Below, piece by piece: positions 7,814 through 47,797 of a DNA stretch of 64,000 nt (its first letter is position 1; each line of letters begins with the position of its first letter). Under the pieces are notes generated by a model. That model saw nothing but the letters and a program-made list of their open reading frames with translations. It was not told the origin of the DNA and searched no databases. The translations under genes and the position numbers were made by a program. The stretch spans positions 1,054,001 to 1,118,000 of the forward strand of contig NZ_VCNM01000002.1 of assembly GCF_007671725.1 (NCBI RefSeq), written 5' to 3'. The stretch comes from Halorubrum depositum. Its GTDB lineage: Archaea; Halobacteriota; Halobacteria; Halobacteriales; Haloferacaceae.

Positions 7814-7898
7814 GCCGAGGTAGCCTAGCCTGGCCAAGGCGGTAGATTCGAAATCTACTGTCCATTCGGACACCGGAGTTCAAATCTCCGCCTCGGCG
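7814..7898 (+). tRNA. tRNA-Ser (anticodon CGA)
   Basis: A complete class II tRNA folds here. The acceptor arms GCCGAGG and CCTCGGC pair over 7 bp. The anticodon stem GTAGA/TCTAC encloses the loop TTCGAAA with anticodon CGA. A long variable arm (TGTCC..GGACA) and a T arm with TTCAAAT follow. The discriminator is G, as in serine tRNAs. CCA is not encoded and no intron is seen. Confidence 0.97.
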
Positions 7899-7957
7899 CT
7901 TCTCTCGAACGCCGCCCCGCGAGCGATGCGGCCGGGGACGGCGACCGCGGTCGGACC

Positions 7958-32243: not shown

Positions 32244-33227
32244 ATGGAGTGCGACAAGTGCGGGGCCGACGCCGTCCACCACGCCGCCTACTCCGGGGCG
32301 CACCTCTGCGGCCAGCACCTCCGCCGGTCGGTCGAGAAGCGCGTGAAACGCCGGATCCGGGAGGATTCCCTCCTCGATCCGGAGGCGACGCCCGAAGACC
32401 CCGACCGCTGGGTGATCGGCCTCTCAGGCGGGAAGGACAGCGTCGCGCTGACCCGAATTCTGGACGACGTGTTCGGCGAGGACCCCCGCGTCGAGATGCT
32501 CGCCCTGACGATCCACGAGGGGATCGAGGGGTACCGCGACGAGAGCCTCGACGCCTGCGTCGAGCTGGCCGCGGAGCTGTCGCTCCGCCACGAGGTGGTC
32601 TCCTACGAGGAGGAGTTCGACGTGCGGATGGATGACGTCGTCGAGAGCGACCCCGAGAACATGGCCGCCTGCGCGTACTGCGGCGTGTTCCGCCGGGACC
32701 TCTTAGAGGAGTACGCCGCCGAGTTCGACGCCGACAAGCTGCTCACCGGTCACAACCTCGACGACGAGGCGCAGACGGCGATGATGAACTTCCTCGAGGG
32801 CGACGTGCGGCAGGTGGCGAAACACTTCGACGCCTCGCTCGGTCCCTTCGACGAGCGCGAGGAGACCGACGACTTCGTCCCGCGCGCGAAGCCCCTCCGC
32901 GACGTGCCCGAGAAGGAGATCGCGCTCTACTGCCACGTGCGCGACCTCCCGACCCACATGGCCGAGTGCCCCCACTCCTCGGAGGCGTACCGCGGCGAGA
33001 TCCAGTCGACGATCCACGAGTTAGAGGAGAATCACCCCGGCGCCCGCCACTCGATCATGGCCGGCTACGAGGAGCTCTCCGCGCTCGCCGCCGAGGCGTA
33101 CCGCGAGGGAGGCGACGCCGCCGACGGCTCCCCCGACCTCGGCGAGTGCGAGCGCTGCGGCTCGAAGACGAGCCGCGACGTCTGCCGGAAGTGCCGGCTG
33201 CTCGACTCGATCGAGGCGGCGAGTTAG
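32244..33227 (+). CDS. ncsA: tRNA 2-thiolation protein NcsA (TtcA/Ncs6 family)
   Basis: The protein has 327 residues. An N-terminal zinc finger (CDKCGADAVHH..HLCGQHL) is followed by the PP-loop ATPase motif LSGGKDS (about 63-69), the catalytic pair in CAYCGVFRR, GHNLDDEAQT, and a C-terminal zinc ribbon (CERCGSKTS..CRKC). This is the archaeal Ncs6/Tuc1 type, which adds sulfur to wobble uridine of tRNA with the ubiquitin-like protein SAMP2 as sulfur carrier. A SAMP2-like gene begins at 63896. ATG 32244 gives the typical MECDKCG start. Confidence 0.9.
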   Translation: MECDKCGADAVHHAAYSGAHLCGQHLRRSVEKRVKRRIREDSLLDPEATPEDPDRWVIGLSGGKDSVALTRILDDVFGEDPRVEMLALTIHEGIEGYRDESLDACVELAAELSLRHEVVSYEEEFDVRMDDVVESDPENMAACAYCGVFRRDLLEEYAAEFDADKLLTGHNLDDEAQTAMMNFLEGDVRQVAKHFDASLGPFDEREETDDFVPRAKPLRDVPEKEIALYCHVRDLPTHMAECPHSSEAYRGEIQSTIHELEENHPGARHSIMAGYEELSALAAEAYREGGDAADGSPDLGECERCGSKTSRDVCRKCRLLDSIEAAS

Positions 33228-34282
33228 TTTTTCGCCGGTCGGATGTCACGGTCGACCCGCCCGAGCAGGTCGAGCTGGTGGGTGAGGTAGACGAGGTCGC
33301 CGGCGTCCAGCTGTCGCCGTCGCTCGGCGAGCCAGTCGTCGAGGGCGGCGATCGAGAGCGATCCTCCGTCCCCGTCGGCGGCGATCACCTCGCCGACGGC
33401 CTCCTCAACGGTGTCGAGAATGTGCCGGAGGAAGAACGCCTCGTCGCCCGGATAGCCGGCTCCGTCGCCCGAGCGGCCCGCCGCGCCGTCGGCCGGGCGC
33501 ACGATCCAGTCCGAGCCGGCGATCCCGAGGAGCGTCGAGCCGTCCGCCTCGCGCAGACGCGAGAGCGCGGCGCCGCCGGCGCGGCTGTTCCCGCCCGGCT
33601 TCTCGTCCATGTGTCGGTGGTAGAGCCGCTCTACCGCCCGATCGTCGGGGTGCGCCGGGCGGAACCGGGTGCCGCCGTCGAAGGTGATCGGGAAGTAGTA
33701 CGTGCCGCCGGGCGCGAGCGCGTCGAGCAGTGCGTCGAGGCCGTCGAGGTCGAGCACGTCGAGCAGCGCCATCCCGATCAGGGCGTCCCACTCGCCTGCG
33801 TTCTCGCCCGCGTACGCGACCGCGTCGGCGGCGACCGGCTCGACCCTGACCGTGCGCGCGTCGGCCTCGACGACGAGCGCGTTCGCCTCGTCGCCCCCGG
33901 AGCGATCGCGGGCGTCGGAGACGGAGACCGACCCTTCCCGCTCCGCCGCCCACTCGCGGAGGAACGGCCCGAGCCCGGCGAGCGCCCCCGCGTCGCGGTC
34001 GACGGCGACGTACCGAGCCTCGCCGGGCGGAAGCACCTCCCAGTCCAGCAGCCGGGCGACCATCGTCCCGATCCCGGCCCCGACCTCCAGCACGCGGAGC
34101 GGCCCAGCCGTCGACGCGGCGCGGTCGGCGAGCCGCTCGCGAAGGAGTCCGACGAGCCGCCGGTCGAGCGCCCGGTCGTCGACGGCCCGCTTCGCCCGGA
34201 GGTAGCGCCGGAACGCGGCGGTGTCGGCGGCGAGCGCGTCGCCGCCGCCCCCGTCCGAGGACCCGTCGCGCTCTCCCGTCAC
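33224..34282 (-). CDS. SAM-dependent methyltransferase in a pterin-synthase/glycosyltransferase operon
   Basis: The protein has about 352 residues. The Rossmann SAM motif LRVLEVGAGIGTMVARLL lies near residues 57-74, followed by the acidic strand YVAVDRDAGAL and a motif region WDALIGMALLDVLDL. The substrate is unknown. The GTG start at 34282 overlaps the end of the glycosyltransferase gene, and the 3' end touches the convergent ncsA stop. Third gene of an overlapping PTPS-glycosyltransferase-methyltransferase run. Confidence 0.78.
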   Translation of the reverse strand: MTGERDGSSDGGGGDALAADTAAFRRYLRAKRAVDDRALDRRLVGLLRERLADRAASTAGPLRVLEVGAGIGTMVARLLDWEVLPPGEARYVAVDRDAGALAGLGPFLREWAAEREGSVSVSDARDRSGGDEANALVVEADARTVRVEPVAADAVAYAGENAGEWDALIGMALLDVLDLDGLDALLDALAPGGTYYFPITFDGGTRFRPAHPDDRAVERLYHRHMDEKPGGNSRAGGAALSRLREADGSTLLGIAGSDWIVRPADGAAGRSGDGAGYPGDEAFFLRHILDTVEEAVGEVIAADGDGGSLSIAALDDWLAERRRQLDAGDLVYLTHQLDLLGRVDRDIRPAKN

Positions 34283-35388
34283 GTCGCCACCTCCGGATCG
34301 GTCGCGTCGACGCCGTCGACCGCGTCCGCGACCTCGGCGAGGAGCCGGCGGACGCGCGCCGTCGACTCCGACCAACTCGGATGGCGCTCGTACCGTCGCC
34401 TCGCGGCGCGGCCCATCTCGGCGAGCCGGTCGGGGTCTCCCGCGAACCCCTCCAGCGCGCGGGCGACGGCCGCCGGGTCGTCCGGGTCCACGAGGACGCC
34501 CGTCTCGCCGTCCGTGACGGTATCGCTCGCGCCGCCCGCCCGCGAGGCGATCGCCGGCAGGCCGAAGCTCATCCCCTCGAGATAGACGATCCCGAACCCC
34601 TCGTACCGGGAGGGGACCGCGAGGACGTGGCTCTCGCGGAGGACGTCTGCCAGTTCGGCGTCCGACAGCCGGCCGGCGAAGCTGACGCGGTCGCCGAGCC
34701 CGCGCTCCCGAACCAGTCGCCGGACGTCGCCGACGTGGCCCTCGTCGACAGTTCGGCCGACGACGGTGAGCTCGACCGCGGCGTCGGCCCGCGCCATCCC
34801 CTCGACGAGCGTGTCCAGCCCCTTCCGCGGCTCGATGTTCCCGACGAAGGCGACCCGGAGGGGGGAGGGGTTGGAGTCGCCGAGCGCGGCCGCTCGTTTC
34901 TCGATCGCGTCGTCGTCGATCGCGGGGTCGAACCGGTCGCCCGCGGGCGGGGCGACGACGGTCGCCTCGGGGTCGACGCCGAGGGCGGCGACGGCGTCGC
35001 GGGTCGCCGCGCTGTTGCAGACGACGCCGTCGACGGTCGCGAGGTACCGGCGCTCCACCGCGCGGTACAGCGGCGAGAGCCGGCGCGGCTCGCTCGCCCG
35101 CAGGTGGTGGACGACGCTCACGACCGGGTACGGCAGGTCGCGGTTGGCGAGGACCAGCGAGGGGTGCGCGAGCTCGTCCTGGAGCATCACGTCGACGTCG
35201 ACGCGGAGGCGGTCGCGGAGTGACGGGCTGGCGTTGTCCAGCAGCCCGCGGGGGTACGCCCGCCACGGGAGCTCGACGACCTCGACGGCGTCGCCGGCGG
35301 CCCGGAGCCCCTCGACCAGCTTCCGGTCGTAGCGGAACCCCCCCGACCGCTCGTCGAGGCTCCCGTACAGCGTGAGCCCGACCCTCAT
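34279..35388 (-). CDS. Glycosyltransferase family 4 (GT-B fold)
   Basis: The protein has 369 residues. The C-terminal half has the GT4 donor-site features VAFVGNIEPRKGLDTLVEG, LAVPSRYEGFGIVYLEGMSF (E-x7-E) and GLPAIASRAGGASDTV. The N-terminal half is the acceptor domain and begins MRVGLTLYGSLDERSGGFRY. It transfers a sugar from an activated nucleotide or phosphate donor; the acceptor is unknown. It overlaps its neighbours on both sides, so it is in one transcript with the PTPS-like and methyltransferase genes. Confidence 0.88.
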   Translation of the reverse strand: MRVGLTLYGSLDERSGGFRYDRKLVEGLRAAGDAVEVVELPWRAYPRGLLDNASPSLRDRLRVDVDVMLQDELAHPSLVLANRDLPYPVVSVVHHLRASEPRRLSPLYRAVERRYLATVDGVVCNSAATRDAVAALGVDPEATVVAPPAGDRFDPAIDDDAIEKRAAALGDSNPSPLRVAFVGNIEPRKGLDTLVEGMARADAAVELTVVGRTVDEGHVGDVRRLVRERGLGDRVSFAGRLSDAELADVLRESHVLAVPSRYEGFGIVYLEGMSFGLPAIASRAGGASDTVTDGETGVLVDPDDPAAVARALEGFAGDPDRLAEMGRAARRRYERHPSWSESTARVRRLLAEVADAVDGVDATDPEVAT

Positions 35389-35762
35389 ACCGGCGCGTCG
35401 TACGTCGCGGCGGCCGCGTCGTCCTCCCAGACGGTCACGGCCAGCTCGGTCACGGTGTCGTCGGTCACCGCGTCGGTCACGCGCTCGAAGATCGCTCGGG
35501 CGAAGCGCTCGACGCTCGGATTGCGACCCTCGAACTCGGGGAGGTCGTTGAGCAGCTCGTCGCGGTAGCGGTCGGCGAGGTCGGCGAGCGCAGCCTCCGC
35601 GTCGTCGATGTCGACGAGGTAGTCGTGCTCGTTCAGCGCCGGCCCGCGAAACGTCAGCTCCACCTCGAAGCGATGGGAGTGCGGGACCCCCTCGGGCCCG
35701 GGGTCGGGGACCGTGAGGTAGTGCTGGGCCACGAAGTCGGTCAGCACCGTCGTCGCGTACAT
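35385..35762 (-). CDS. 6-pyruvoyl-tetrahydropterin / 6-carboxytetrahydropterin synthase family protein
   Basis: The protein has 125 residues. It shows the zinc-binding histidines of the T-fold PTPS/QueD family (VAQHYLT and HSHRFEVEL) and a C-terminal Glu (VTVWED). QueD makes the 7-deazaguanine precursor; PTPS-III-type enzymes make pterins. Here it leads an operon with a glycosyltransferase and methyltransferase, suggesting a modified pterin or related cofactor and not only queuosine/archaeosine. ATG 35762 (MYATTVLTDF) is preferred over a GTG four codons upstream. Confidence 0.85.
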   Translation of the reverse strand: MYATTVLTDFVAQHYLTVPDPGPEGVPHSHRFEVELTFRGPALNEHDYLVDIDDAEAALADLADRYRDELLNDLPEFEGRNPSVERFARAIFERVTDAVTDDTVTELAVTVWEDDAAAATYDAPV

Positions 35763-35846
35763 GGACCGATCCACGGACGCGACGCACCTAAATCCGGAGG
35801 GCGGCGGTAGGGAGGCGAGGGAATCGCCTCGCGGTTCGCGTCTCCC

Positions 35847-36716
35847 TCACAGGTATCCGAGCGCCTCGAGCCGGGCGCGCTCGCCCGTCTCGCCGTGGAC
35901 CCGGCTCACCGGAAGCGGCTCCGGCGGTTCGAGCGCGGGGTCGAGGGTCCCGCGATCGACGCCCGTCGCCTCGGCCCACGGGACGGCGAGGAGCGCCGGA
36001 ACGGGGGTGTGCATGGGGTGGCCGTACAATCCCCACTCGCCGAAGAGGTTGCCGTGGTCGGCGGTGACCGCGACCCGGCCGTCGACGTTGTCGACGAGCG
36101 TCGCCACCTCGGCGAGGACGTGCCGGAGGTTCGCCTCGTAGGCGTCCCACACGCGCTCGACCGAGACCTCGCCGCGCCGGAGCGACACCCACGGGTTCCC
36201 CTCGTTGCTGTGGCTCCCGGTCCGAGCCAGCCCGTCGTCGCCGTCGAGGGGATCCGGGACGAACGGGTGGTGCGGCTGCATGTAGTGGACGACGAGCCGA
36301 TCCGGGTCGCGCTCGCGGGCCAGCGCGACCGCCCGGTCGGTCACGGCCGCCGCCGGCACGGTGCCGAGGGCGTCGTCCCACGCGTACTTCCACACCTCGT
36401 CGAGCGCGGCGAACGCGTCGACGTCGAGGTAGCGGTCGGTCCACGTGTTGCCCGTGACCATGACCGTCCGCGCCGTTTCGGGACGGTCGACGAACGTGTT
36501 CTCCAACCACTCCGAGGAGGAGCTCCCGACCGACCGGACCGTCTCGACCTCGCCGAGGAAGCCGAAGTCGGGCGCGACCGAGCGGAACAGGTCGGCCCGG
36601 CAGGCGTCGAGGACGACGAGGACGTCCCACTCGCGGTCGAAGGCGTTCGTCCCGTAGTCGAGCCGCCGACCGATCGCCTGCAGCCCGCGCAGATAGGCGG
36701 TCCCGAGGCGGCTCAT
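35847..36716 (-). CDS. Alkaline phosphatase superfamily (sulfatase-like) protein
   Basis: The protein has 289 residues. It has the metal-site pattern of the superfamily: WDVLVVLDACRADLF near the N terminus, HYMQPHHPFVPDP, and VAVTADHGNLFGEWG. In sulfatases the active Cys sits in CxPxR or CxAxR; here CRAD follows, so true sulfatase activity is doubtful. It may be a phosphodiesterase or phosphotransferase, for instance on surface glycans. The start at 36716 (MSRLGTAYLRGL) is preferred. It is divergent from the fused reductase. Confidence 0.8.
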   Translation of the reverse strand: MSRLGTAYLRGLQAIGRRLDYGTNAFDREWDVLVVLDACRADLFRSVAPDFGFLGEVETVRSVGSSSSEWLENTFVDRPETARTVMVTGNTWTDRYLDVDAFAALDEVWKYAWDDALGTVPAAAVTDRAVALARERDPDRLVVHYMQPHHPFVPDPLDGDDGLARTGSHSNEGNPWVSLRRGEVSVERVWDAYEANLRHVLAEVATLVDNVDGRVAVTADHGNLFGEWGLYGHPMHTPVPALLAVPWAEATGVDRGTLDPALEPPEPLPVSRVHGETGERARLEALGYL

Positions 36717-36804
36717 GCCCGGCTCCGTCACGACCGCCAGTTGGCGCGAGGCGACTAAACCGCTCCGGCGGGACACCTATACGTCTCCCCGCCTCGGTAC
36801 GACC

Positions 36805-38802
36805 GTGAACTGTCTGTTCGTGGGGGCCGGGTCGATCTCGCCGGAGTACGCCGCCGGGCTGTCCGGGAGTTCTCTGTCGCTCGCCGGCGTCGTCGACCTC
36901 GACGGGGACCGCGCCGCCGCCCTCGCCGAAGACCACGGCTGCCCGTCGTTCGCCGATTTAGAGACGGCGCTTTCGGCGGTCGACGCGCCGCTCGTCGTGA
37001 ACCTGACGAGCCACGCCGCCCACGCGCCGGTGACGCGGACCGCGCTGAAGGCCGACCGCCACGTCTACTCGCAGAAGCCGCTCGCGCTCGACGCCGACGG
37101 GGCGCGTGAGCTGGTGGCGCTCGCCCGCGACCGCGGGCTCGCGCTCGGCTGCGCGCCCGGCACGCCGCGGGCGCCCTCGCAGCGACGCGCGGGCCGGCTC
37201 CTCGCCGACGGCAGGCTCGGCCCGGTGGGACTCGGATACGCCCACGCCCACGTCGGTCGCGTGACCGACTGGCACGACCGCCCCGAGTCGTTCCTGGAGA
37301 TCGGCCCGCTGTACGACGGCGCCGTCTACCCGCTCGCGCTGCTGGTGTCGTGGTTCGGCCCGGTCGAGCGCGTCCGCGTCGCCGACGCCCTCGACGTGTG
37401 GCCCGAGCGCGAGGACCGGCGACCGTCGACGCCGAGCCACGTCGAGGCGACGCTGGCGTTCGCGGCGGGCCCGACCGTCAGGCTGACCGCCAGCTTCTAC
37501 GCGCCCCACCGAAGCCGGGAGTTCTACGGGTTAGAACTCCACGGTGACGACGGCTCGCTGTACCTGAAGGGGACCGGCGCGATGGACGACGACCGCGACG
37601 CCGTCCGGTTCGGCCGGGTCGGGCGGGAGTACGTGAGCGCGCCATCGGCGGCTCCCGAGGAGCCGTACGAGTACGTCGACGCGGTGGAGCGCCTCGCCGC
37701 GTCGGTCGAGGCCGGGTCCCCCTCGCGGGCCGGAGGGCGCCGGGGCGCCCACGTCGTCGCCGTCTGCAACGCGATCGAGGCGGCCGCCGAGGGCGACGGG
37801 CCGGTCGCGGTCGACGACTGCGGGGCGACTGCCGACCCGCCGCCGGCACCGGTGGTGCGGCCGGCGGCGTCGGGGGAACGTAATACGAACGGGGAGGGCG
37901 AGGAGACGTCGGGGCCCGCAGCGATCCGCCTCCCCGCCGTCGGCTTCGGCTGCTCGCGCTACCGCGACGGGGAGTACGTCGAGCGCGCCGACTCGATCGC
38001 GACCGCGCTCGATTCCGGCTACCGCCTCCTCGACTCCGCGGAGCTGTACGGCAACGAACATCGGATCGGGGAGCTGCTCGCCGCGCCGGGCGCGCCGGAC
38101 CGCGAGCGCGTGTTCCTCCTCGGGAAGGCGTGGCGCACCAACCACCGCCGCGAGCACCTCCTCGACGCCTGCGCGGGCAGCCGCGAGGAGCTCGGGATCG
38201 GCGCGTTCGACTGCTACGCGCTCCACTGGCCGTCGGCGCTCGAACACCGGGGAGAACTGCGACGGCTCGCAGAGAAACCGGTCGAGCGACAGGAAACGCT
38301 CACCTTCCCCGAGGACGCGGACGGCGGGCTCGCGACCGCCGACGTGTCGCTCGCGACCGCGTGGGAGAACCTGGAGGCCGTGTACGACAGAGGTTGGGCA
38401 CGGACGCTCGGGGTCTGCAACGTCTCGCGGGCGCAGCTGGAGACGGTGCTGGAGGCGGGCGAGGTCGACCCGGCCTTGGTGCAGGTGGAGCGACACCCCT
38501 ACCGTCCCCGTGACGAACTCGTCGCGTTCTGCCACGAGCGCGGGATCCGGGTCGTCGCGCACTCGCCGCTGTCGGCGCCCGGGCTCCTCGACGAGCCCAT
38601 ACTCGGCGAGATCGCCGACGACCGAGGGCTCTCGCCCGCCGCGGTCGTCGTCGCGTGGAACGCCTCGCGAGGGGTCGTCCCGATCCCGTCCAGCACGAGC
38701 GAGTCGCACGTCGTCTCGAACCTGGCCGCCGGGGGCGAGCGACTGACCGACGGCGAGGTCGCTCGGATCGACGCCCTGCGCGACCCCGACTTCGAGCGGT
38801 AG
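36805..38802 (+). CDS. Fused Gfo/Idh/MocA oxidoreductase and aldo/keto reductase
   Basis: The protein has 665 residues. Residues 1 to about 350 are a Gfo/Idh/MocA oxidoreductase (VNCLFVGAGSISPEYAAGL; the EKP-type motif as SQKPLALDADGA). After a Pro/Ala/Glu-rich linker (about 350-370) comes a complete aldo/keto reductase with the tetrad D410, Y415, K441 and H474 (DSAELYGNE, LLGKAW, ALHWPS). Both parts use NAD(P)H, so it may carry out two redox steps on one sugar-like substrate. GTG 36805 was chosen because it starts at the Rossmann strand. The frame is continuous. Confidence 0.82.
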   Translation: MNCLFVGAGSISPEYAAGLSGSSLSLAGVVDLDGDRAAALAEDHGCPSFADLETALSAVDAPLVVNLTSHAAHAPVTRTALKADRHVYSQKPLALDADGARELVALARDRGLALGCAPGTPRAPSQRRAGRLLADGRLGPVGLGYAHAHVGRVTDWHDRPESFLEIGPLYDGAVYPLALLVSWFGPVERVRVADALDVWPEREDRRPSTPSHVEATLAFAAGPTVRLTASFYAPHRSREFYGLELHGDDGSLYLKGTGAMDDDRDAVRFGRVGREYVSAPSAAPEEPYEYVDAVERLAASVEAGSPSRAGGRRGAHVVAVCNAIEAAAEGDGPVAVDDCGATADPPPAPVVRPAASGERNTNGEGEETSGPAAIRLPAVGFGCSRYRDGEYVERADSIATALDSGYRLLDSAELYGNEHRIGELLAAPGAPDRERVFLLGKAWRTNHRREHLLDACAGSREELGIGAFDCYALHWPSALEHRGELRRLAEKPVERQETLTFPEDADGGLATADVSLATAWENLEAVYDRGWARTLGVCNVSRAQLETVLEAGEVDPALVQVERHPYRPRDELVAFCHERGIRVVAHSPLSAPGLLDEPILGEIADDRGLSPAAVVVAWNASRGVVPIPSSTSESHVVSNLAAGGERLTDGEVARIDALRDPDFER

Positions 38803-38873: not shown

Positions 38874-39260
38874 ATGGCAACGACCGAATCACGACAGTCC
38901 GCGATCGACGTCGGCTCGCTCACCGGCCTCCACTGGGTAGGGATCGTCGCGGCCCTGGTGTCCGCCGCGATCCACCTCCGTCTCGGTGTCGGGGGGCTCG
39001 CGTTGCCGCTGCGGATCGGCTTCCTCCTCGCCGGACTCGGCTTCGTCGGAGCGGTCGTGCTGGTGCTGCTCGACTACCGCCGGCGCACGGTGTACGCCGT
39101 CGGGATCCCCTTCACGCTCGTCCAGATCGTCTTGTGGTACGGCATCAACTTCGCGGGCGGGACGAAGTCGTTCCCGGCCGACGTCGGGACGCTCGGCGCC
39201 GTCGACAAGGTCGCGCAGGTCGTGTTGATCGCCGTCCTCGTCGCCCTCCTGCGCCGGTAG
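38874..39260 (+). CDS. Small four-helix membrane protein
   Basis: The protein has 128 residues with four predicted membrane segments (about 22-42, 48-66, 75-98 and 108-126) and a short cytosolic N terminus. No catalytic motif is seen. It is a haloarchaeal family of unknown function. It lies between the fused reductase and the CDP-alcohol phosphatidyltransferase on the same strand. Confidence 0.7.
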   Translation: MATTESRQSAIDVGSLTGLHWVGIVAALVSAAIHLRLGVGGLALPLRIGFLLAGLGFVGAVVLVLLDYRRRTVYAVGIPFTLVQIVLWYGINFAGGTKSFPADVGTLGAVDKVAQVVLIAVLVALLRR

Positions 39261-39385: not shown

Positions 39386-40156
39386 ATGGCCGAGGCCCGC
39401 CAGCGACGGCCCCTCCGCGTCGGGATCGGCGTCGGGCTCCCGCTCGTCGCCGCGGTCGCGCTCGCCGCGCTCCTGTTGCGGCTGTTCCCCGCGGACGCGA
39501 CGGGGCGGTGGGGGCTCTCCCCCGCCGTCGTCGCCGGCGTCTGCTGGGCCGGACAGCTCTGGTACGTCGGCTACGGCCTCGATCCGGAGGGGATAACCGG
39601 CGGCTTCTGGCGGCGTCTGTTCGGGCTCGCGAATACGGTCACGCTCGTGCGGGGCGCGCTGTACGCCGTCGTCGCCGGGTTCATCGTCGCGCCGCCGGAG
39701 ACGGCGCTCGCGTGGATCCCGGCGCTGTGTTACGGAACCGGCGTCGCCCTCGACAACCTCGACGGGACCGTCGCCCGGACGGTCGGTCGGGAGACGGAGA
39801 TCGGTCGCCGGCTCGACATGGCGTTCGACACGTTCGGGTTCGTCGCCGCGCCACTCGTGGCGGTGGCGTGGGGTCTGCTCCCGGTCTGGTACCTCTCGAT
39901 CTCCGCCGCGCGCTACGTCTTCCGCGGGGCCGTGTGGCTGCGGCGCGCCCGCGGGCTCCCCGTCGGCGACCTCCCCGACAGCGACCTCGGGAAGTACCTC
40001 GCGGGCGTCCAGATGATCTTCGTGACCGTCGCGCTCGTCCCACCGGCGCCGACGGATCTCGTGTGGGCCCTCGCGCCAGTCGTCCTCGCCCCGTCGCTCG
40101 CGGTGTTTACGCGGGATTACCTCGCCGTCAGCGGGCGGCTCCCCGGGCGTCGCTGA
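39386..40156 (+). CDS. CDP-alcohol phosphatidyltransferase family protein
   Basis: The protein has 256 residues with about six membrane segments. It contains the full CDP-alcohol motif: DNLDGTVAR, then GRRLDMAFD (four Asp in the D-x2-D-G-x2-A-R-x8-G-x3-D-x3-D pattern). It joins a CDP-activated lipid to an alcohol, as in synthesis of phosphatidyl- or archaetidyl-inositol, glycerol or serine lipids. Which alcohol is not decided. An N-terminal pair of membrane segments precedes the core. It is convergent with the dehydrogenase gene. Confidence 0.85.
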   Translation: MAEARQRRPLRVGIGVGLPLVAAVALAALLLRLFPADATGRWGLSPAVVAGVCWAGQLWYVGYGLDPEGITGGFWRRLFGLANTVTLVRGALYAVVAGFIVAPPETALAWIPALCYGTGVALDNLDGTVARTVGRETEIGRRLDMAFDTFGFVAAPLVAVAWGLLPVWYLSISAARYVFRGAVWLRRARGLPVGDLPDSDLGKYLAGVQMIFVTVALVPPAPTDLVWALAPVVLAPSLAVFTRDYLAVSGRLPGRR

Positions 40157-40168
40157 CCCGTCGGACGC

Positions 40169-41200
40169 TCACGAGTACTCCAGGATCACCTGGACCGTCG
40201 CGTCGGGCTCCGAGTCGAGCAGCTCGTACGCCTCCGGCGCGCGCTCGAAGGGGATCCGGTGAGTGATCAGCTCGTCGGCGGGGATCCGATCGAGCCGGTC
40301 GAGGGCCGCGTCCATGCGTCGGTCGCGGTCCCAGCGCCCTCGGAGTTCGGGGCTGATCGTCGACACCTGACTGGAGACGATGTCGATGCGGTCCCGGTGG
40401 AACCGCCCGCCGAGGTCGATCGGTTCGCGCTTGGTCCCGTACCACGAGCCGACGACGATCCGCGCGTCGTAGCCGACGACCCCGATCGCGTCGTCGAGCG
40501 CGCTCGGCTGACCGGACAGCTCGATCGCGAGGTCAGCGCCGTCGACGGCGGAGTCCTCGTCGGCGAGGCCCGACCCGGCGGCGTCGGCGGCGCCGAGCTC
40601 GGCCGGCGTCGTCGTTCGGTCGGCGCCGAACTCCGCGGCGAGCGCCCGGCGGCGCTCGATCGGGTCGACCACGACGAGCGACTCCAGCGGGAACGCGGCC
40701 AGCAGTCGGGTGACGCAGAGCCCGATTACCCCGGCGCCGAACACCACGACCCGCTCCCCGAGTCGCGGGGCGGCGTCGAGCACGATGTTCGTCGCGGTCT
40801 CGACTGAGGGGAGGAGCGAGCCGGCCGCCGGCGTCGTTCCCGGCGGAAGCGCGACCACCGAGTCGGGGGTCGCGCGGAAGCGCGTCCGGTGGGGCACGAA
40901 CGCGAACACCGACCGACCGACCCACTCCGGGTCGACGTCGGCGCCGACCTCTCGGACGACGCCGCTCGCGGCGTAGCCGTACTGAAGCGGGTACGAGAGG
41001 TCGCCGTCGAGCGCGTCGAGCGTCTCGTCGGCCGGAAAGTCGGCCGGCGTCTGGTCGCGGTACACGAGCAGCTCCGTGCCGGCGCTTATCGCCGACGTTC
41101 GGGTCTCGACGAGCAGTTCGCCGGCGGCCGGCGGGCCGACGGCCGTCTCCCGCACCTCGACGGTCTCCGGGCCCGTGAAGTAGAGCGCGGCGTCGGTCAT
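40169..41200 (-). CDS. Medium-chain dehydrogenase/reductase lacking the usual zinc cysteines
   Basis: The protein has 343 residues. The N-terminal GroES-like domain (PAAGELLVETRTSAISAGTE) and Rossmann motif (VVVFGAGVIGLCVTRLLAAF) identify a medium-chain dehydrogenase. The catalytic zinc Cys is replaced (SAISAGTE) and the structural four-Cys lobe is missing. It resembles BchC-like and glucose-fructose-type members. It probably reduces or oxidises a sugar or cofactor intermediate. It sits at the far edge of the PTPS/glycosyltransferase block, beside ftsZ2. Confidence 0.82.
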   Translation of the reverse strand: MTDAALYFTGPETVEVRETAVGPPAAGELLVETRTSAISAGTELLVYRDQTPADFPADETLDALDGDLSYPLQYGYAASGVVREVGADVDPEWVGRSVFAFVPHRTRFRATPDSVVALPPGTTPAAGSLLPSVETATNIVLDAAPRLGERVVVFGAGVIGLCVTRLLAAFPLESLVVVDPIERRRALAAEFGADRTTTPAELGAADAAGSGLADEDSAVDGADLAIELSGQPSALDDAIGVVGYDARIVVGSWYGTKREPIDLGGRFHRDRIDIVSSQVSTISPELRGRWDRDRRMDAALDRLDRIPADELITHRIPFERAPEAYELLDSEPDATVQVILEYS

Positions 41201-41387: not shown

Positions 41388-42599
41388 CTAGCGGATGACG
41401 TCGAGGCCGTTGTTCTTCTCGGTCGGCTCGGTGCCGCCGTCGGACTCCCAGCCGCGGTCGGCGCCGCCGGAGGTCGCGGCGCCGGCGGTGCCGTTCGCCT
41501 CGGCGGCGCGCGAACGCGAGTCGCCGAGGTCCTCGCCGTCGACCGCGGCGCGGGACTTGTCGGCCTGCTTCTGCGTCGAGGGGCCGAGCACCTGCGCGCT
41601 CTGGACGCCCGTCATGATCGCCATGACGCGGACCTTCCCCTTGTACTCGTCCTGGATGCGGGCGCCCCAGATCACGTTGGCGCTCGCCTCCAGCCGCTCG
41701 GTGATGTTGTTCGCGATCCCCTCGGCCTCCTTCAGCGTGAGGTCCGGGCCGCCCGTGATGTGGACGAGCCCGCCGGAGGCGCCGCGGTAGTCGACGTCCA
41801 ACAGCGGGTGGTTCATCGCGTCGTTGACCACCTCCTGCGTCTTGTTCTTGTCCTGGGTCTCGCCGACCAGCATGACGGCCACGCCGCCCTGGTTCATGAT
41901 CGTGGACATGTCGGCGTAGTCCAGGTTGATGAGGCTCGGCTGGGTGATCGTCTCGGAGATCCCCTTCACCGTCTCCGCGATGATCTGGTCCATCACGGAG
42001 AACGCCTTCCCGATCGGCAGATTCGGCACGTAGTCGAGCAGCCGGTTGTTGTCGAGGACGATGATCGAGTCGGCCTCGTTGCGGAGCGACTCCAGCCCCT
42101 CCTCGGCCTTCACGGTGCGGGCGCGCTCGACGTTGAACGGCGTCGAGACCATCCCGACGACGATGGCTCCCTGATCTTTGGCGATCTTCGAGACGACCGG
42201 CGCCGCGCCGGTGCCGGTGCCGCCGCCCATCCCGGCGGTGACGAAGACGAGGTCGGCGTCGCCGAGCACCTCCTTGATCGTCCCCTGGGCCATCTCGGTG
42301 GCGCGCTCGCCCATCTTGGGGTCGCCGCCGGCGCCGAGCCCCTGCGTGAGCGACTTGCCCACGAGGATCTTGGTGTCGGCCTCGACCATCTTGAGGTGCT
42401 GTTTGTCCGTGTTGATCGCGACGGTGTCGGCGCCGTCGACGCCGATGTTGTACAGCCGGTTGATCGTGTTGTTCCCGGCGCCGCCGGCACCGACGATGAC
42501 GATCCGGGGGTCCCCGAACTCGTCGTCGTCCATGTCGACGTCCATGTCGCGCTTCTCCGCTTCCGCGTTGTCGAGGGCGTCCTGAACGAGATCTTGCAT
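41388..42599 (-). CDS. ftsZ2: Cell division protein FtsZ, FtsZ2 type
   Basis: The protein has 403 residues. It has the tubulin signature [12 protein letters not shown], the nucleotide-binding [15 protein letters not shown] and the T7 loop NLDYADM. The acidic N-terminal extension ([19 protein letters not shown]) and C-terminal GLDVIR are features of haloarchaeal FtsZ2. FtsZ2 is a GTPase that drives constriction at midcell, with FtsZ1. It is preceded, four bases away, by the ribbon-helix-helix regulator gene, as in other haloarchaea. Near-certain. Confidence 0.97.
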
Positions 42600-42603
42600 C
42601 AGT

Positions 42604-42783
42604 TTACACCTTCGCCCAGTTGCGGTTGCGGCCGCGCTCGTCGCGCTCGCCGTCCTGTTCGTTCAACATGTCGCGGACGGCCGACCGGATCGCCTCGCTC
42701 CGGTTCGGGAACTCGCCCGTCTCGACCATCTGTTCGACCTCGTCGATCTGCTGTTTCGGGATTCGTAGTGTCACACGCTCCAT
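42604..42783 (-). CDS. cdrS: Short ribbon-helix-helix regulator CdrS
   Basis: The protein has 59 residues: [20 protein letters not shown] is the ribbon and first helix, and [17 protein letters not shown] the second helix of a MetJ/Arc-type DNA-binding fold. A basic tail (RNRNWAKV) follows. In Haloferax and Halobacterium the short RHH protein CdrS is co-transcribed with ftsZ2 and controls it and other division genes. The position, size and fold agree. The promoter region upstream carries five GTAAGAC/GTCTTAC sites. Confidence 0.92.
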
Positions 42784-42796
42784 TGGTATTCCCCCG

Positions 42797-42949
42797 GTAA
42801 GACGGCGAACACGCGACGCGTGTGTCTTACAGCGACGAATCGCCCGTCGACGAGGTCATCCCCGCCGCGGACGGCCGCTGTAAGACGACCGTCTTACGCA
42901 ACTCAAAACACCGAGGCTACCATTATAAAACTATCGGCGGTTGTAAGAC
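42797..42949 (-). promoter_or_regulatory. cdrS-ftsZ2 promoter with GTAAGAC/GTCTTAC operator array
   Basis: Five copies of the heptamer occur, alternating in strand: 42797-42803 (+), 42824-42830 (-), 42880-42886 (+), 42891-42897 (-) and 42943-42949 (+). The third and fourth form an inverted pair with a 4-base spacer. The minus-strand TATA box TTTATAAT (42922-42929) puts the start near 42899, at this pair. The fifth site adjoins the upstream side of the TATA box. The layout suggests repression or tuning by an RHH protein, CdrS or CdrL. Confidence 0.65.
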
Positions 42950-42996
42950 AACCACCGGAGGCGTCGTATTCGGACTCCTACAGGCCTGTGGCTCTG

Positions 42997-43590
42997 TTAT
43001 CTGTCGTTTAACACGTCTGCAGCGGGCGTCCGCCGGCCGCAGCCGGGGCAGAACGCCCAGTCGGTCCGCAGCTCGTCGCCGCACTCGCAGAACGCCCGAT
43101 GAGACTGTTTTTCGCCGCAATTCGGACAGTAGACGTGGTCAGAAGGGACGTTCTCTCCGCAGCCCCCGCAGGCGTTTTCTCCCGCGTTCGCGGTCGGCCG
43201 CGTCTTACGCCGCCCCGTCTCGGCGTCCGCCGACGTCTCACGCGTCACACGGGCGTCGGCGTCGTCGGCGTCAGGCGCGTCGAGAGAGACGTTCACGTTG
43301 ATCTCGGCCGGGCCTCCGGACGCATACGTCGCGTCGGACGGGACGGACCGCCCGCCGAGGCGGTCGGCTAACGCGACGTCGAGCCGATCCGCGATGAGAT
43401 CGTCGACGCGGTCGGCTAACGCGGCGTCGACCGTCTCGTCGGCGGTCGAGCCCGCGTCGGGGGCGGTCGCCTCCTCGGCGTCGTCGAGGTGGGTGCGGAG
43501 GGCCTCCCGCATCACCTCGCTCTTGGAGGCGTCACACGCTTCCAGCCGCTCGACCAGATCGTCGTCGGCCCGGAAGGTGATCTTACTCAT
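42997..43590 (-). CDS. cdrL: Long ribbon-helix-helix / zinc-ribbon regulator CdrL
   Basis: The protein has 197 residues. An N-terminal RHH domain (MSKITFRADDDLVERLEACD, then KSEVMREALRTHL) is followed by an acidic linker and a C-terminal double zinc ribbon (CGGCGENVPSDHVYCPNCG, then CECGDELRTDWAFCPGCG). It matches CdrL, the neighbour of cdrS in other haloarchaea, reported to regulate the cdrS-ftsZ2 operon. It lies on the same strand just upstream. A GTCTTAC heptamer is also found inside the gene at 43202-43208. Confidence 0.88.
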   Translation of the reverse strand: MSKITFRADDDLVERLEACDASKSEVMREALRTHLDDAEEATAPDAGSTADETVDAALADRVDDLIADRLDVALADRLGGRSVPSDATYASGGPAEINVNVSLDAPDADDADARVTRETSADAETGRRKTRPTANAGENACGGCGENVPSDHVYCPNCGEKQSHRAFCECGDELRTDWAFCPGCGRRTPAADVLNDR

Positions 43591-43717
43591 GCGAACTCCA
43601 TATCGACCGTGCTACAAGTATCTTCCCCCCGATATCGGACGGTGGCCGCGAGACGTTTCAGCCCCCGGAAACGAGCGCGTCGAGCCGCCGCGGTCGGCGG
43701 AAATCATGCGACATGGT

Positions 43718-43770
43718 CACACGTGTGTCTGACGCAGATTTATACGGCCCGCGTGGGCATACGTGTGTAT
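43718..43770 (+). promoter_or_regulatory. Promoter of the coiled-coil/smc operon with repeated ACGTGTGT
   Basis: TTTATA (43739-43744) lies about 29 bases before ATG 43772. A perfect 10-base palindrome CACACGTGTG (43718-43727) stands upstream of it, and a related CATACGTGTGTAT (43759-43771) lies between the box and the start codon. The pair flanking the TATA box is a candidate operator. The assignment is inference. Confidence 0.45.
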
Positions 43771-43771
43771 A

Positions 43772-44182
43772 ATGAGTAACCGCGTCGAGGACCTCGAACG
43801 ACAGGTCGCGGAGCTGCAGGCGGCGGTCAACGGGCTCACGGAGGAGCTGGTCGAAATGAAAGAGCGCGTCCGACAGGTCGAGGACGCCCAGGAGGTGTCC
43901 GTGCAAGCGGACGCCGCGGACGAGGAAGCGCGAGAGGCCGCCGACGCCGCGGCGGAGTCGTCCGGCGGCGAGCGGCGGACGCACTCCGACGACCACGTCG
44001 AGGTCGTCGAGCGGACCGGCAGCGAGGGCGCGGAGACGAACGCGAACGCGGACGCCGAAGCCGAGAGCGACGACGACATGGTCGTCCCCGAGCAGGAGGC
44101 GACGACGCCGGACGCGGAGGCCGGCGGGTCGGACGCGGAGAGCGACGACGAGGAGTCGGACAGCGACATCATCGTCGCGTAA
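43772..44182 (+). CDS. Acidic coiled-coil protein upstream of smc
   Basis: The protein has 136 residues. The first 50 form a heptad coiled coil (VEDLERQVAELQAAVNGLTEE). The rest is a low-complexity tail of Glu, Asp and Ala ending in DIIVA. It starts the operon that continues with smc (25 bases later) and scpA. Haloarchaeal genomes often carry such a protein here, a family I recall as DUF7518. A role with the condensin complex is inferred only from position. Confidence 0.78.
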   Translation: MSNRVEDLERQVAELQAAVNGLTEELVEMKERVRQVEDAQEVSVQADAADEEAREAADAAAESSGGERRTHSDDHVEVVERTGSEGAETNANADAEAESDDDMVVPEQEATTPDAEAGGSDAESDDEESDSDIIVA

Positions 44183-44206
44183 CTCGCCGCCACATCCCCG
44201 CGTCAC

Positions 44207-47200
44207 ATGCACATCACTGAAGTCGTTCTGGACGGGTTCAAGAGCTTCGGGCGGACGACGAGGATCCCCTTTTACGACGACTTCACGGTCGTCACGGGAC
44301 CGAACGGCTCCGGCAAGTCGAACATCATCGACGGGGTCCTCTTCGCGCTCGGGCTGGCTCGCACCCGCGGGATCAGAGCGAAGAAGCTCACCGACCTGAT
44401 CTACAACCCCGGCCACGACGACGGCGAGGGCTCCGGCGGCCCGAACGAGGCCTCGGTGACGGTGGTGCTCTCGAACGAGGACGGGACGCTCGACCGGTCG
44501 CAGGTCGTCTCCGCGGCCGGCACTGAGAACGTCGGCGACGTCTCCGAGATCACGATCAAGCGCCGCGTGAAGGAGACCGAGGACAACTACTACTCGTACT
44601 ACTACCTCAACGGGCGCTCGGTGAACCTCTCGGACGTGCAGGACCTGCTCGCGGCCGCCGGCGTGACGCCGGAGGGGTACAACGTCGTGATGCAGGGCGA
44701 CGTCACCGAGATCATCAACATGACCCCGTACCAGCGGCGGGGGATCATCGACGAGATCGCCGGCGTCGCCGAGTTCGACGAGAAGAAGGAGGCCGCCTAC
44801 GAGGAGCTCGACACTGTCGAAGACCGGATCGGCGAGGCCGACCTCCGGATCGGCGAGAAGCGGGACCGGCTCGACCGGCTGTCCGACGAGCGCGAGACCG
44901 CCCTCCAGTATCAGGAGTACCGCGACGAACTGGAGGAGTACCGCGGCTTCCTCAAGGCCTCCGAACTGGAGGAGAAGCGCGAGGCGCTCGACGGCGTCGA
45001 GGACGACATCGACGAGGCGGAGGCCGAGCTCGCGGAGCTCCGCGAGGAGCTCGACGCGAGACAGGGGAAGCTCACCCGTTTAGAGGAGGATCTGGCCGAC
45101 CTCAACCACGAGATCGAGACGAAAGGCGAGGACGAGCAGATCCGGATCCGGTCGGAGATCGAGGAGGTGAAAGGCGAGATCTCGCGGCTGGAAGACAAGA
45201 TCGAGGCGGCCGAGGAGCGCGCCGCGGAGGCGGAGACGGAACGCCGCGACGCCTTCGTCCAGATCGACCGGAAGGAGGAGACGATCGAGGAGCTCGAATC
45301 GGAGATCCGCGAGGTGAAAGTCGAGAAGGCGTCCGTCAAGTCCGAGATCGCGACGAAGCGGTCGGAGCTGGCGGACGTCGAGGCCGAGATCGAGGGCGCC
45401 GACACCGAGTTCGACGAGCTGAAAGCCGAGCTCGCCGAGAAGAAGGAGGCGATCGAGTCGCTGCGCGAGACGAGAAACGAGAAGCAGCGCGAGAAGGACC
45501 GCCTGCTCGACGAGGCGCGCCGGCGATCGAACGCGGTGAGCGAGGCCCGGACCGAGCTGGAGGAGGCCCGCGAGTCGCTGCCGGAGCACAAGGCGCGGAT
45601 CTCGGAGCTCCACAGCGAGCTCGACAAGGCCGAGAAGAACGAGGAGACGATCGAGGAGGCGGTCGCCGACCTCTTCTCGGAGAAGGCGGAGAAGAGCGAG
45701 GACCTGGAGGCGGTCGAGGAGGAGCTCCGCGAGAAGCAGAACGAGTACGCCAAGCTGGAGGCGGCCGCCGACCAGCGCGGCGACACCTCCTGGCCGCGCG
45801 CGGTGACGGAGGTGAAGAACGGCGGCATCGACGGAGTCCACGGCGCGGTCGGCGAGCTGGGCTCGGTCGAGGCCGAGTACGCGGAGGCGTGCGAGACGGC
45901 CGCCGGGGGGCGGCTCGCGAACGTCGTCGTCGACGACGACGGGGTCGGTTCGACGTGTATCGACTACCTCAAGCGGCGGAACGCGGGGCGGGCCACCTTC
46001 CTCCCGATCACGGAGATGGACGACCGGAGCCTCCCGCGGAAGCCCTCGCTTCCGGGCGTCGTCGACTTCGCGCGGAACCTCGTCGACTACGACGCCGCGT
46101 ACGCCTCGGTGTTCTCGTACGTGCTCGGCTCGACGCTCGTCGTCGAGGACATGGACACCGCCCGCGAGCTGATGGGCGACTACCGGATGGTCACTCTCGA
46201 CGGCGATCTCGTCGAGAAGTCCGGCGCGATGACGGGCGGCTCCGGCGGCGGCTCGCGGTACGCGTTCACCAAGTCCGGCGGCGGGAAGCTGGAGCGGCTC
46301 GCGACCGAAATCTCGGAGCTGGAGGACGAGCGGCAGTCGCTGCAGGCCGAGATCGACGACCTCGAGGGCGACATCGACGACGCGCGCGACCGGAAGGCCG
46401 ACGCCGCCGAGCGCGTCCGGTCGCTGGAGGCCGACGTCGAGCGCGCCGAGGACGACCTGTCCGACGCCGAAGAGCGCATCGACGAGCTGGAGACCGAGCT
46501 CGAGGAGCTGGAGGCCGAACGCGAGTCCGTCGACGAGGAGATGAGCGATCTGGACGCGGAGCTCGACGAGCTCGATTCGGAGATCGCGGAGTTAGAGGGC
46601 GAGATCGAGGAGATCGAGGCGGAGCTCGCCGACTCGAAGATCCCGGAGCTCTCCGAGCGCGCCGACGAGATCCGCGCCGAGATCGCGGACCTGGAAGACC
46701 GGATGAGCTCGCTCGACGGGCGGCGGAACGAGCTGGAGCTAGAGAAGGGGTACGCCGAGGACGCCGTCGACGAGCTCCACGACGCCGTCGAGGAGACGCA
46801 GAACCGGAAGGCAGAGGCGGAGGAGGCGGTCGCCGAGCACGAGGCCGCGATCGAGGAGCGGGAGGCCGACCTCGCGGAGAAGAAGGAGGCGATCGCCGAC
46901 TTAGAGGAGGAGCTCACGGAGCTGAAGGCCGACCGCGAGGACCTCCGCGAGGAGATCAAGGCGGCGACCCGCGAGCGCGACGAGCAGCGCTCGCTCGTCG
47001 CCGAGGCGGAGTCCGACCTGGAGGACCTGACCGACCGCCGCGACCGGCTGGAGTGGGAGATCGACGAGCTGGAGTCGCAGGTCGGCGAGTACGACGCCGA
47101 CGAGATCCCCGACCTCGACGAGGTCGAGTCGCGGATCGAGGAGCTGGAGGCCGAGATGGAGGCGTTAGAGCCCGTCAACATGCTCGCGATCGACGAGTAC

Positions 47201-47797
47201 GACGAGGTGCAGGAGGCCCTGGATCAGCTCCAGGAGCGCCGGGACGTGCTGGTCGAGGAGCGCGACGCCATCGAGGAGCGCATCGAGGGGTACGAGGCGG
47301 CGAAGAAGGAGACGTTCATGGCGACGTTCGAGTCGATCAACGACCACTTCGAGGAGATCTTCGCGCGCCTCTCGGCCGGCAGCGGCGAGCTCCTCTTAGA
47401 GAACCCCGCGGACCCGTTCGAGGAGGGGCTGACAATGAAGGCGCAGCCCGCCGACAAGCCGGTCCAGCGGCTCGACGCGATGAGCGGCGGCGAGAAGTCG
47501 CTGACCGCCCTCTCCTTCATCTTCGCCATCCAGCGGCACAACCCCGCGCCGTTCTACGCGCTCGACGAGATCGACGCGTTCCTCGACGCGGTCAACGCCG
47601 AGCGCGTCGGCGAGATGATCGAGGAGCTGGCCGAGGACGCGCAGTTCGTCGTGGTCGGCCACCGCTCCGCGCTGTTGGAGCGCTCCGACCGCGCCATCGG
47701 CGTCACGATGCAGGGCGACAACCTCTCGGCGGTCACCGGGATGCAGTTCGGCGGCGGCGACGGTGACAGCGACGACGAGGTGACCGCGGATGACTGA
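44207..47797 (+). CDS. smc: Chromosome segregation protein SMC
   Basis: The protein has 1196 residues. The N-terminal ATPase half has Walker A GPNGSGKSNIIDGVLFALG; long Glu/Lys/Arg coiled coils run to a hinge at about residues 525-680 (DGVHGAVGELGSVEAEYAEA; GAMTGGSGGGSRY). The C terminus carries the signature MSGGEKSLTALSF and Walker B YALDEIDAFLDAVN. SMC forms the condensin ring with ScpA, whose gene overlaps its end by eight bases. Length and motif order are normal. Confidence 0.97.
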   Translation: MHITEVVLDGFKSFGRTTRIPFYDDFTVVTGPNGSGKSNIIDGVLFALGLARTRGIRAKKLTDLIYNPGHDDGEGSGGPNEASVTVVLSNEDGTLDRSQVVSAAGTENVGDVSEITIKRRVKETEDNYYSYYYLNGRSVNLSDVQDLLAAAGVTPEGYNVVMQGDVTEIINMTPYQRRGIIDEIAGVAEFDEKKEAAYEELDTVEDRIGEADLRIGEKRDRLDRLSDERETALQYQEYRDELEEYRGFLKASELEEKREALDGVEDDIDEAEAELAELREELDARQGKLTRLEEDLADLNHEIETKGEDEQIRIRSEIEEVKGEISRLEDKIEAAEERAAEAETERRDAFVQIDRKEETIEELESEIREVKVEKASVKSEIATKRSELADVEAEIEGADTEFDELKAELAEKKEAIESLRETRNEKQREKDRLLDEARRRSNAVSEARTELEEARESLPEHKARISELHSELDKAEKNEETIEEAVADLFSEKAEKSEDLEAVEEELREKQNEYAKLEAAADQRGDTSWPRAVTEVKNGGIDGVHGAVGELGSVEAEYAEACETAAGGRLANVVVDDDGVGSTCIDYLKRRNAGRATFLPITEMDDRSLPRKPSLPGVVDFARNLVDYDAAYASVFSYVLGSTLVVEDMDTARELMGDYRMVTLDGDLVEKSGAMTGGSGGGSRYAFTKSGGGKLERLATEISELEDERQSLQAEIDDLEGDIDDARDRKADAAERVRSLEADVERAEDDLSDAEERIDELETELEELEAERESVDEEMSDLDAELDELDSEIAELEGEIEEIEAELADSKIPELSERADEIRAEIADLEDRMSSLDGRRNELELEKGYAEDAVDELHDAVEETQNRKAEAEEAVAEHEAAIEEREADLAEKKEAIADLEEELTELKADREDLREEIKAATRERDEQRSLVAEAESDLEDLTDRRDRLEWEIDELESQVGEYDADEIPDLDEVESRIEELEAEMEALEPVNMLAIDEYDEVQEALDQLQERRDVLVEERDAIEERIEGYEAAKKETFMATFESINDHFEEIFARLSAGSGELLLENPADPFEEGLTMKAQPADKPVQRLDAMSGGEKSLTALSFIFAIQRHNPAPFYALDEIDAFLDAVNAERVGEMIEELAEDAQFVVVGHRSALLERSDRAIGVTMQGDNLSAVTGMQFGGGDGDSDDEVTADD

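Follow-up and report, generated by a model that had tools for sequence, protein, structure and literature searches.

A conserved Gfo/Idh/MocA and aldo/keto reductase fusion protein at a haloarchaeal gene locus

We analyzed a 64,000-nucleotide stretch of Halorubrum depositum DNA (hereafter, the window) and found that the single uninterrupted frame at 36805–38802 of the forward strand, which starts with GTG at 36805 and encodes 665 residues, specifies a predicted two-headed oxidoreductase, in which each half comes from a known enzyme family. The gene is single-copy in the window's genome and is matched in 106 of 391 genomes of the class Halobacteria (E ≤ 1e-40), and we are highly confident that it is a true fusion belonging to the locus described below. 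Records name the protein by one half, and its value lies in marking a haloarchaeal biosynthetic locus across these genomes; the literature searched, mostly papers available without subscription, held no description of the fusion or its locus.

Both halves scored above the curated cut-offs of their Pfam models, with GFO_IDH_MocA (PF01408; residues 1–114, 62.5 bits) and GFO_IDH_MocA_C3 (PF22725; residues 127–252, 41.4 bits) in the N-terminal part and Aldo_ket_red (PF00248; residues 379–659, 137.9 bits) in the C-terminal part. An alternative in-frame ATG lies upstream at 36715; the GTG aligns with the annotated CDS start of the Haloarcula marismortui homolog. The AlphaFold2 model of the fusion, for which 68 aligned relatives served as input, reached a mean pLDDT of 91.4 and a pTM of 0.89, and the structure prediction of the linker that the preliminary description had called for placed all values below 50 in one short segment between the halves (Table 1), as befits a flexible linker. 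We then considered fold matches re-aligned with VIA-align, a comparison confined to Foldseek's matches and compatible with other families as well: residues 1–340 superposed on 1,5-anhydrofructose reductase (Z = 36.5), the Gfo half also on glucose-fructose oxidoreductase (Z = 36.1) and aldose-aldose oxidoreductase (Z = 35.4), and residues 371–665 on AKR1C3 and aldose-6-phosphate reductase (Z = 33.1 each). Pfam and the fold matches accordingly identify the two domains typical of the Gfo/Idh/MocA family, Rossmann at the N terminus and alpha/beta at the C terminus, and the (beta/alpha)8 barrel of the aldo/keto reductases (AKRs). The earlier claim of a sugar oxidoreductase and an AKR barrel in a single frame was confirmed by Pfam, AlphaFold2 and fold comparison together, both sugar-type enzymes being complete.

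Table 1. Domains of the fusion gene and its neighbors, in window coordinates; loci are counted among the 60 surveyed.
Feature	Coordinates	Strand	Basis
SAM methyltransferase-like gene, start uncertain	33224..34390	-	Methyltransf_25 17.6 bits, below cut-off; 40/60 loci
GT4 glycosyltransferase	34279..35385	-	PF00534, 121.1 bits; 18/60 loci
PTPS-like enzyme	35385..35774	-	PF01242, 94.9 bits; 27-row alignment; 41/60 loci
Gene with weak sulfatase/phosphatase similarity, start uncertain, transcribed divergently from the fusion	35847..36776	-	PF00884 18.3 bits, cut-off 25; 22/60 loci
Gfo/Idh/MocA half, residues 1–345	36805..37839	+	Pfam; VIA-align Z 36.5; D31/K91/D171/Y175 conserved
Variable flexible linker, about residues 346–371	37840..37917	+	pLDDT < 50 at 357–371; little conservation
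Aldo/keto reductase half, residues 372–665 and stop	37918..38802	+	Pfam; VIA-align Z 33.1; D410/Y415/K441/H474
Small DUF7475 protein, probably membrane-bound	38874..39260	+	PF24287 above cut-off; 46/60 loci
CDP-alcohol phosphotransferase (CAPT)	39386..40156	+	PF01066; motif residues conserved, 40 rows; 56/60 loci
MDR-type dehydrogenase, BchC-like	40169..41200	-	PF00107; bchC model below its cut-off; 42-row alignment; 43/60 loci

Residue conservation was assessed in an alignment of 94 rows including the window, derived from 130 loci (L009–L138) by way of 128 proteins and 97 non-redundant sequences. Proteins of at most 560 aa (L092, L134, L137 and L138) were dropped, L135 and L095 lacked a start and yielded no protein, and L092 and L174 were checked separately. 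Catalysis in the Gfo/Idh/MocA family relies on the Lys of an (E/Q)KP motif and a downstream Asp, which we take to be K91 and D171 of the fusion; K91 was found in 93 of 94 rows (with one gap) and D171 in all 94. The family often carries a His four residues past the catalytic Asp, whereas the fusion has a Tyr at this place, Y175, without exception (94/94). For the AKR half, residues D410, Y415, K441 and H474 had been singled out in the preliminary description and are indeed as claimed, all four occurring together in 92 of the 94 aligned members. NADP-dependent AKRs bind the 2'-phosphate through a Lys and an Arg; at positions 629 and 635, presumably the places of these two residues, the fusion carries Ser (75 rows), Ala (15), Thr (3) or Gly (1) and His (92/94), respectively, and so lacks the pair that characterizes NADP(H)-specific AKRs. 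D31, which we assume to be the Asp after the second Rossmann strand and a sign of NAD(H) preference, is invariant. Taken by these motif rules, D31 and the residues at 629 and 635 suggest NAD(H) as the predicted cofactor of both halves. In most lineages, constraint acts on both active sites.

The fusion was not peculiar to this assembly. Both halves lie within one open frame in 99 of the 106 matching class genomes (table read by eye), 96 with a single match row across the join and three (G095, G088 and G323) with two match rows in one open frame. The remainder comprise two genomes in which the fusion is cut by contig ends (G279 and G044), four that match chiefly over the Gfo half (G367, G174, G124 and G345) and one remnant with a stop (G110); two intact separate genes for the halves were found in none of the 106. 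The preliminary description had named relatives with separate genes, and a join created by sequencing error, as what would overturn it, and neither emerged from the 391-genome class sample. We found no support for an erroneous sequencing or assembly join between adjacent genes, against which stand the 99 open frames and the plasmid records described next, and we rejected this explanation as having a negligible chance of being right.

The search for the same domain pair that had been proposed was run in class genomes, a phylum sample and plasmids, and it recovered the fusion repeatedly in haloarchaea. With the Gfo half alone as query against 294 genomes drawn from the phylum (E ≤ 1e-25), 16 genomes matched, 15 of them with the fusion (including G044 and its copy broken by a contig end) and one, G040, with a 31% identical stand-alone protein. 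In a plasmid collection searched in protein mode, five of 1285 matching records covered at least 80% of the fusion, all of them haloarchaeal (Haloarcula, Salinigranum and Halobellus), and a scan of genome contigs for close relatives, the one search that covered bacterial chromosomes, returned 41 loci, all haloarchaeal by title, so distant bacteria may also carry this architecture. Named carriers include Halorubrum, Haloarcula, Halorientalis, Halobaculum and Salinigranum, and in several Haloarcula species the locus resides on large plasmids. Halorubrum copies are mostly 80–92% identical to the window fusion; those of G097, G198 and G227 are only 61–63% identical, and G198, the one of these three included in the tree, was placed in a distant group amid other families. 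From this low identity and distant placement, we infer horizontal transfer of the fusion.

A subset of relatives retains the fusion with a decayed AKR half. In L090 (G367), L091 (G174), L092 (G124) and L174 (G345), the AKR half has lost its Tyr, Lys and His, and in L090, L091 and L174 Asp410 as well; the Asp410 column of L092 reads Asp in one alignment and Val in another, with Tyr, Lys and His lost in both. D31, K91, D171 and Y175 are retained in all four, and each of these genomes still has CAPT, MDR and PTPS-like genes. A tree of 82 Gfo halves, which includes three of the four decayed rows and in which L090 sits on a long branch of unsure placement, indicates at least two losses of the AKR site. 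The AKR half of Haloarcula sp. GH36 is decayed in the same way, as is that of H. pelagica, where, however, there is a frame change in the Gfo half. L134 (Haloarcula rara), with a frame change inside the gene, and the truncated L138 (Halonotius terrestris) were left out of this count; in L138, from about position 10900, the frame of the truncated Gfo half continues into what is apparently the opposite strand of the MDR gene.

The AKR chemistry thus seems dispensable in some lineages, and, given that genomes without an intact AKR site retained the Gfo site along with the CAPT, MDR and PTPS-like genes, an obligatory redox coupling between the halves is doubtful. The preliminary description had suggested that the fusion could oxidize and reduce neighboring positions of one substrate and recycle the nicotinamide; of this, a shared use of NAD(H) stands as possible, both halves being predicted to be of the NAD(H) type, whereas obligatory coupling is opposed by the AKR losses in these four genomes. 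A redox-neutral scheme, in which one half would oxidize a hydroxyl and the other reduce a carbonyl on one and the same molecule, recycling NAD within the protein for a net isomerization or epimerization, fits the conservation of both sites in 92 of 94 rows, the cofactor prediction and the appearance among the best fold matches of glucose-fructose and aldose-aldose oxidoreductases, single-domain enzymes that oxidize one sugar and reduce another; set against repeated losses of the AKR site in proteins that retain the Gfo site, it appears to us rather unlikely. That same decay, which spares the Gfo half and the locus, would be expected if the AKR half were mainly accessory, in a structural or detoxifying capacity, and the Gfo half alone served the pathway, but the full tetrad persists in nearly all aligned members and makes this reading distinctly improbable. 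The repeated loss of the AKR site offers a natural experiment on the need for coupling in fused redox enzymes.

Next, we considered the genes around the fusion, using tblastn with the window genes at 60 fusion loci of at most 20 kb each; counts out of 61 comprise these loci and the window. The neighborhood is shared by the 60 loci across many genera. CAPT lies mostly downstream of the fusion, with upstream placement in, for example, L060, and the residues of the CAPT motif, D..DG..AR...G...D...D, are conserved at 95% or more of the 40 aligned rows. In Haloarcula sp. GH36, annotation gives a one-strand order of fusion, CAPT, GTP cyclohydrolase IIa, MDR, PTPS and methyltransferase, with a 4-nt overlap between fusion and CAPT. 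Homologs of the methyltransferase-like gene are annotated as class I SAM-dependent methyltransferase. Of the 61 loci, 28 hold a member of a second, different GT4 family and 15 a GTP cyclohydrolase III/IIa. The MDR dehydrogenase has no cysteine common to its 42 aligned rows and is therefore probably zinc-free; genes of its kind (40169–41200 in the window) are annotated 'zinc-binding alcohol dehydrogenase' despite this missing shared cysteine. The PTPS-like protein retains the His residues for a zinc-type metal and a Glu conserved in 27 rows, and in the window it contains no Cys at all, in contrast to tetrahydrobiopterin-type PTPS, where a catalytic Cys precedes the HGH motif (PMC5041015, available text). 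The same text assigns PTPS-IV to F420 synthesis on unpublished grounds and describes the role of PTPS-V as unclear (PMC5041015). Elsewhere in the window, FtsZ-like and SMC-like genes, named from their translations, adjoin the locus at 41388–47797 and are kept there in the five Halorubrum loci surveyed; a leuA-Halobacteria RNA (Rfam RF03001, 73.4 bits) lies at 11744–11796 on the reverse strand and a tRNA-Ser with anticodon CGA at 7814–7899 on the forward strand.

We then compared the distribution of these genes across the class, as raw genome counts uncorrected for shared descent or joint transfer. Across all 391 genomes, 233 had a PTPS-like gene (E ≤ 1e-20), whereas among the 106 with the fusion 105 had one and only G110, with its remnant, did not. 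CAPT was detected in 145 of 391 genomes (E ≤ 1e-30), of which we regarded the 108 scoring 5.5e-48 or better as orthologs, the next score being 1.3e-42; a CAPT ortholog accompanied the fusion in 103 of 106 genomes (absent in G253, G303 and G339). MDR was found in 218 of 382 genomes (E ≤ 1e-60). Counted by eye, these include no fewer than 96 of the 106 with the fusion, with no strong match in G072, G110, G139, G146, G184, G293, G296 and G340; G384 and G385 do not appear in the MDR listing and possibly were not among the 382 drawn. Conversely, 128 genomes carry a PTPS-like gene and five (G001, G007, G268, G301 and G337) a CAPT ortholog without the fusion, so both genes work without it. We inspected 20 fusion-free loci, 15 picked for a PTPS-like match and five for a strong CAPT match: 18 hold PTPS, and 17 of these 18 also hold MDR and seven a GTP cyclohydrolase. 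As this PTPS/MDR set is found without the fusion, the fusion is an addition to a set that also exists alone. On one plasmid (G154:C7, 410554 bases), a TGA lies in frame within the PTPS-like match, a place for which the annotation lists no PTPS gene. The G110 locus (L095; contig C1, about 1631061–1633279) contains an AKR remnant with a stop and a truncated GTP cyclohydrolase IIa, with the CAPT match still strong and a PTPS-like match (E ≤ 1e-20) absent, as if the locus decays together.

These distributions also bear on whether two modules merely adjoin one another, with the fusion, DUF7475 and CAPT making a polyol or cyclitol lipid head group and PTPS, MDR and the cyclohydrolase making an unrelated flavin, F420 or pterin compound. 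CAPT tracks the fusion, the PTPS/MDR sets do occur without it, and sugars and polyols are substrates of the Gfo and AKR families, although the models for inositol dehydrogenase and didehydrogluconate reductase match weakly and far below their cut-offs. Nevertheless, the fusion is nested almost entirely within PTPS genomes, and CAPT or a CAPT-like gene adjoins PTPS/MDR without the fusion (for example, in G001, G007, G337, G330, G158 and G358), such that we judge a two-module arrangement unlikely. The sugar or inositol framing of the preliminary description left aside a neighborhood with GTP cyclohydrolase IIa, PTPS-like and CAPT genes.

The cyclohydrolase copy numbers are informative in this respect. 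At least one further GTP cyclohydrolase IIa is encoded elsewhere in 12 of the 15 genomes with a locus copy, the locus copy being the only one in G050, G066 and G232; the gene is single in eight of eight tested fusion genomes without a locus copy and in three fusion-free genomes. One genome, G365, has three copies in an assembly of 150 contigs that is possibly mixed. An additional copy speaks for the use of GTP at the locus, and a GTP-derived product is, on balance, somewhat favored. The accessible part of PMC8305020 reports that Haloferax HVO_1284 (arfA) is required for riboflavin, so single cyclohydrolase IIa copies may be housekeeping, and describes haloarchaeal lipid head-group synthesis as only partly resolved. 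Pterin glycosides are known, one of them from the archaeon Sulfolobus (PMC3546692, available text).

Together, these data lead us to a tentative if quite plausible proposal: that the fusion is a probably NAD(H)-dependent, two-headed oxidoreductase tailoring a GTP-derived, glycosylated and perhaps lipid-linked product of the haloarchaeal locus. The locus would make a GTP-derived compound of pterin or pyrimidine type that is then glycosylated and methylated, and CAPT would join a CDP-activated lipid to this compound or to a polyol produced for it. The Gfo half would perform the step that is never lost, a hydride transfer on a sugar- or polyol-like hydroxyl or carbonyl through K91, D171 and Y175; the AKR half may reduce a carbonyl in the same pathway through its tetrad, and the flexible tether could keep the intermediate, and possibly also NAD(H), local. 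Consistent with this proposal are the conserved fusion with its conserved active sites and confident two-domain model, the neighborhood common to 60 loci with the GH36 gene order and overlap, the association with PTPS-like genes and with CAPT orthologs (103/106 against 108/391 overall), the extra cyclohydrolase copies, and the joint breakage of fusion and cyclohydrolase in G110, where PTPS is absent. Several observations weigh against it: a PTPS-like gene is missing from the fetched stretch at 19 of 60 fusion loci, 46 of 61 loci have no cyclohydrolase, which is moreover a riboflavin enzyme (PMC8305020, in part), PTPS-like and strong CAPT matches occur in fusion-free genomes, the G154 PTPS-like match has an internal stop, the multi-copy G365 is fragmented, and, in addition to G072 and G110, a strong MDR match is lacking in six and perhaps eight of the fusion genomes. 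The extra GTP cyclohydrolase IIa and CAPT together yield a testable prediction, namely a GTP-derived, perhaps lipid-linked product. A bolder version, which we consider very unlikely, is that the product is a membrane molecule of a new class, in which a glycosylated, methylated, pterin-like head group derived from GTP is placed on an archaeal lipid by CAPT and the fusion sets the redox state of its side chain; if true, such a pterin-like lipid might serve as a redox cofactor bound to the membrane or be a lipid that absorbs light.

Parts of this system have counterparts among known proteins and pathways. The same fusion is found in Haloarcula marismortui (WP_049938537.1, plasmid pNG700; 71% identical end to end), where it lies beside CAPT, GT4 and MDR genes and is annotated 'aldo/keto reductase', after one half only; decayed relatives are annotated 'Gfo/Idh/MocA family oxidoreductase'. 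With 1,5-anhydrofructose reductase, glucose-fructose oxidoreductase and aldose-aldose oxidoreductase, the Gfo half has in common the fold (Z 35–36.5) and the catalytic Lys and Asp, but the fusion is only 17–22% identical to them, carries Tyr in place of the usual His and is joined to an AKR. The AKR half likewise shares its barrel (Z 33) and D/Y/K/H tetrad with AKR1A/1B/1C and aldose-6-phosphate reductase and differs from them in having Ser/Ala and His at the places of the NADP-binding Lys and Arg, in probably using NADH and in being fused. At the level of the locus, halopterins are pterins of Haloarcula, and part of the gene logic of pterin glycosides consists of a cyclohydrolase, a member of the PTPS family, reductases and a glycosyltransferase. 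As far as the available text of PMC3546692 describes them, the pathways to cyanopterin, limipterin and the solfapterin of Sulfolobus share these four elements with the locus, which differs in its type IIa/III cyclohydrolase, its PTPS-like protein without Cys and the presence of CAPT.
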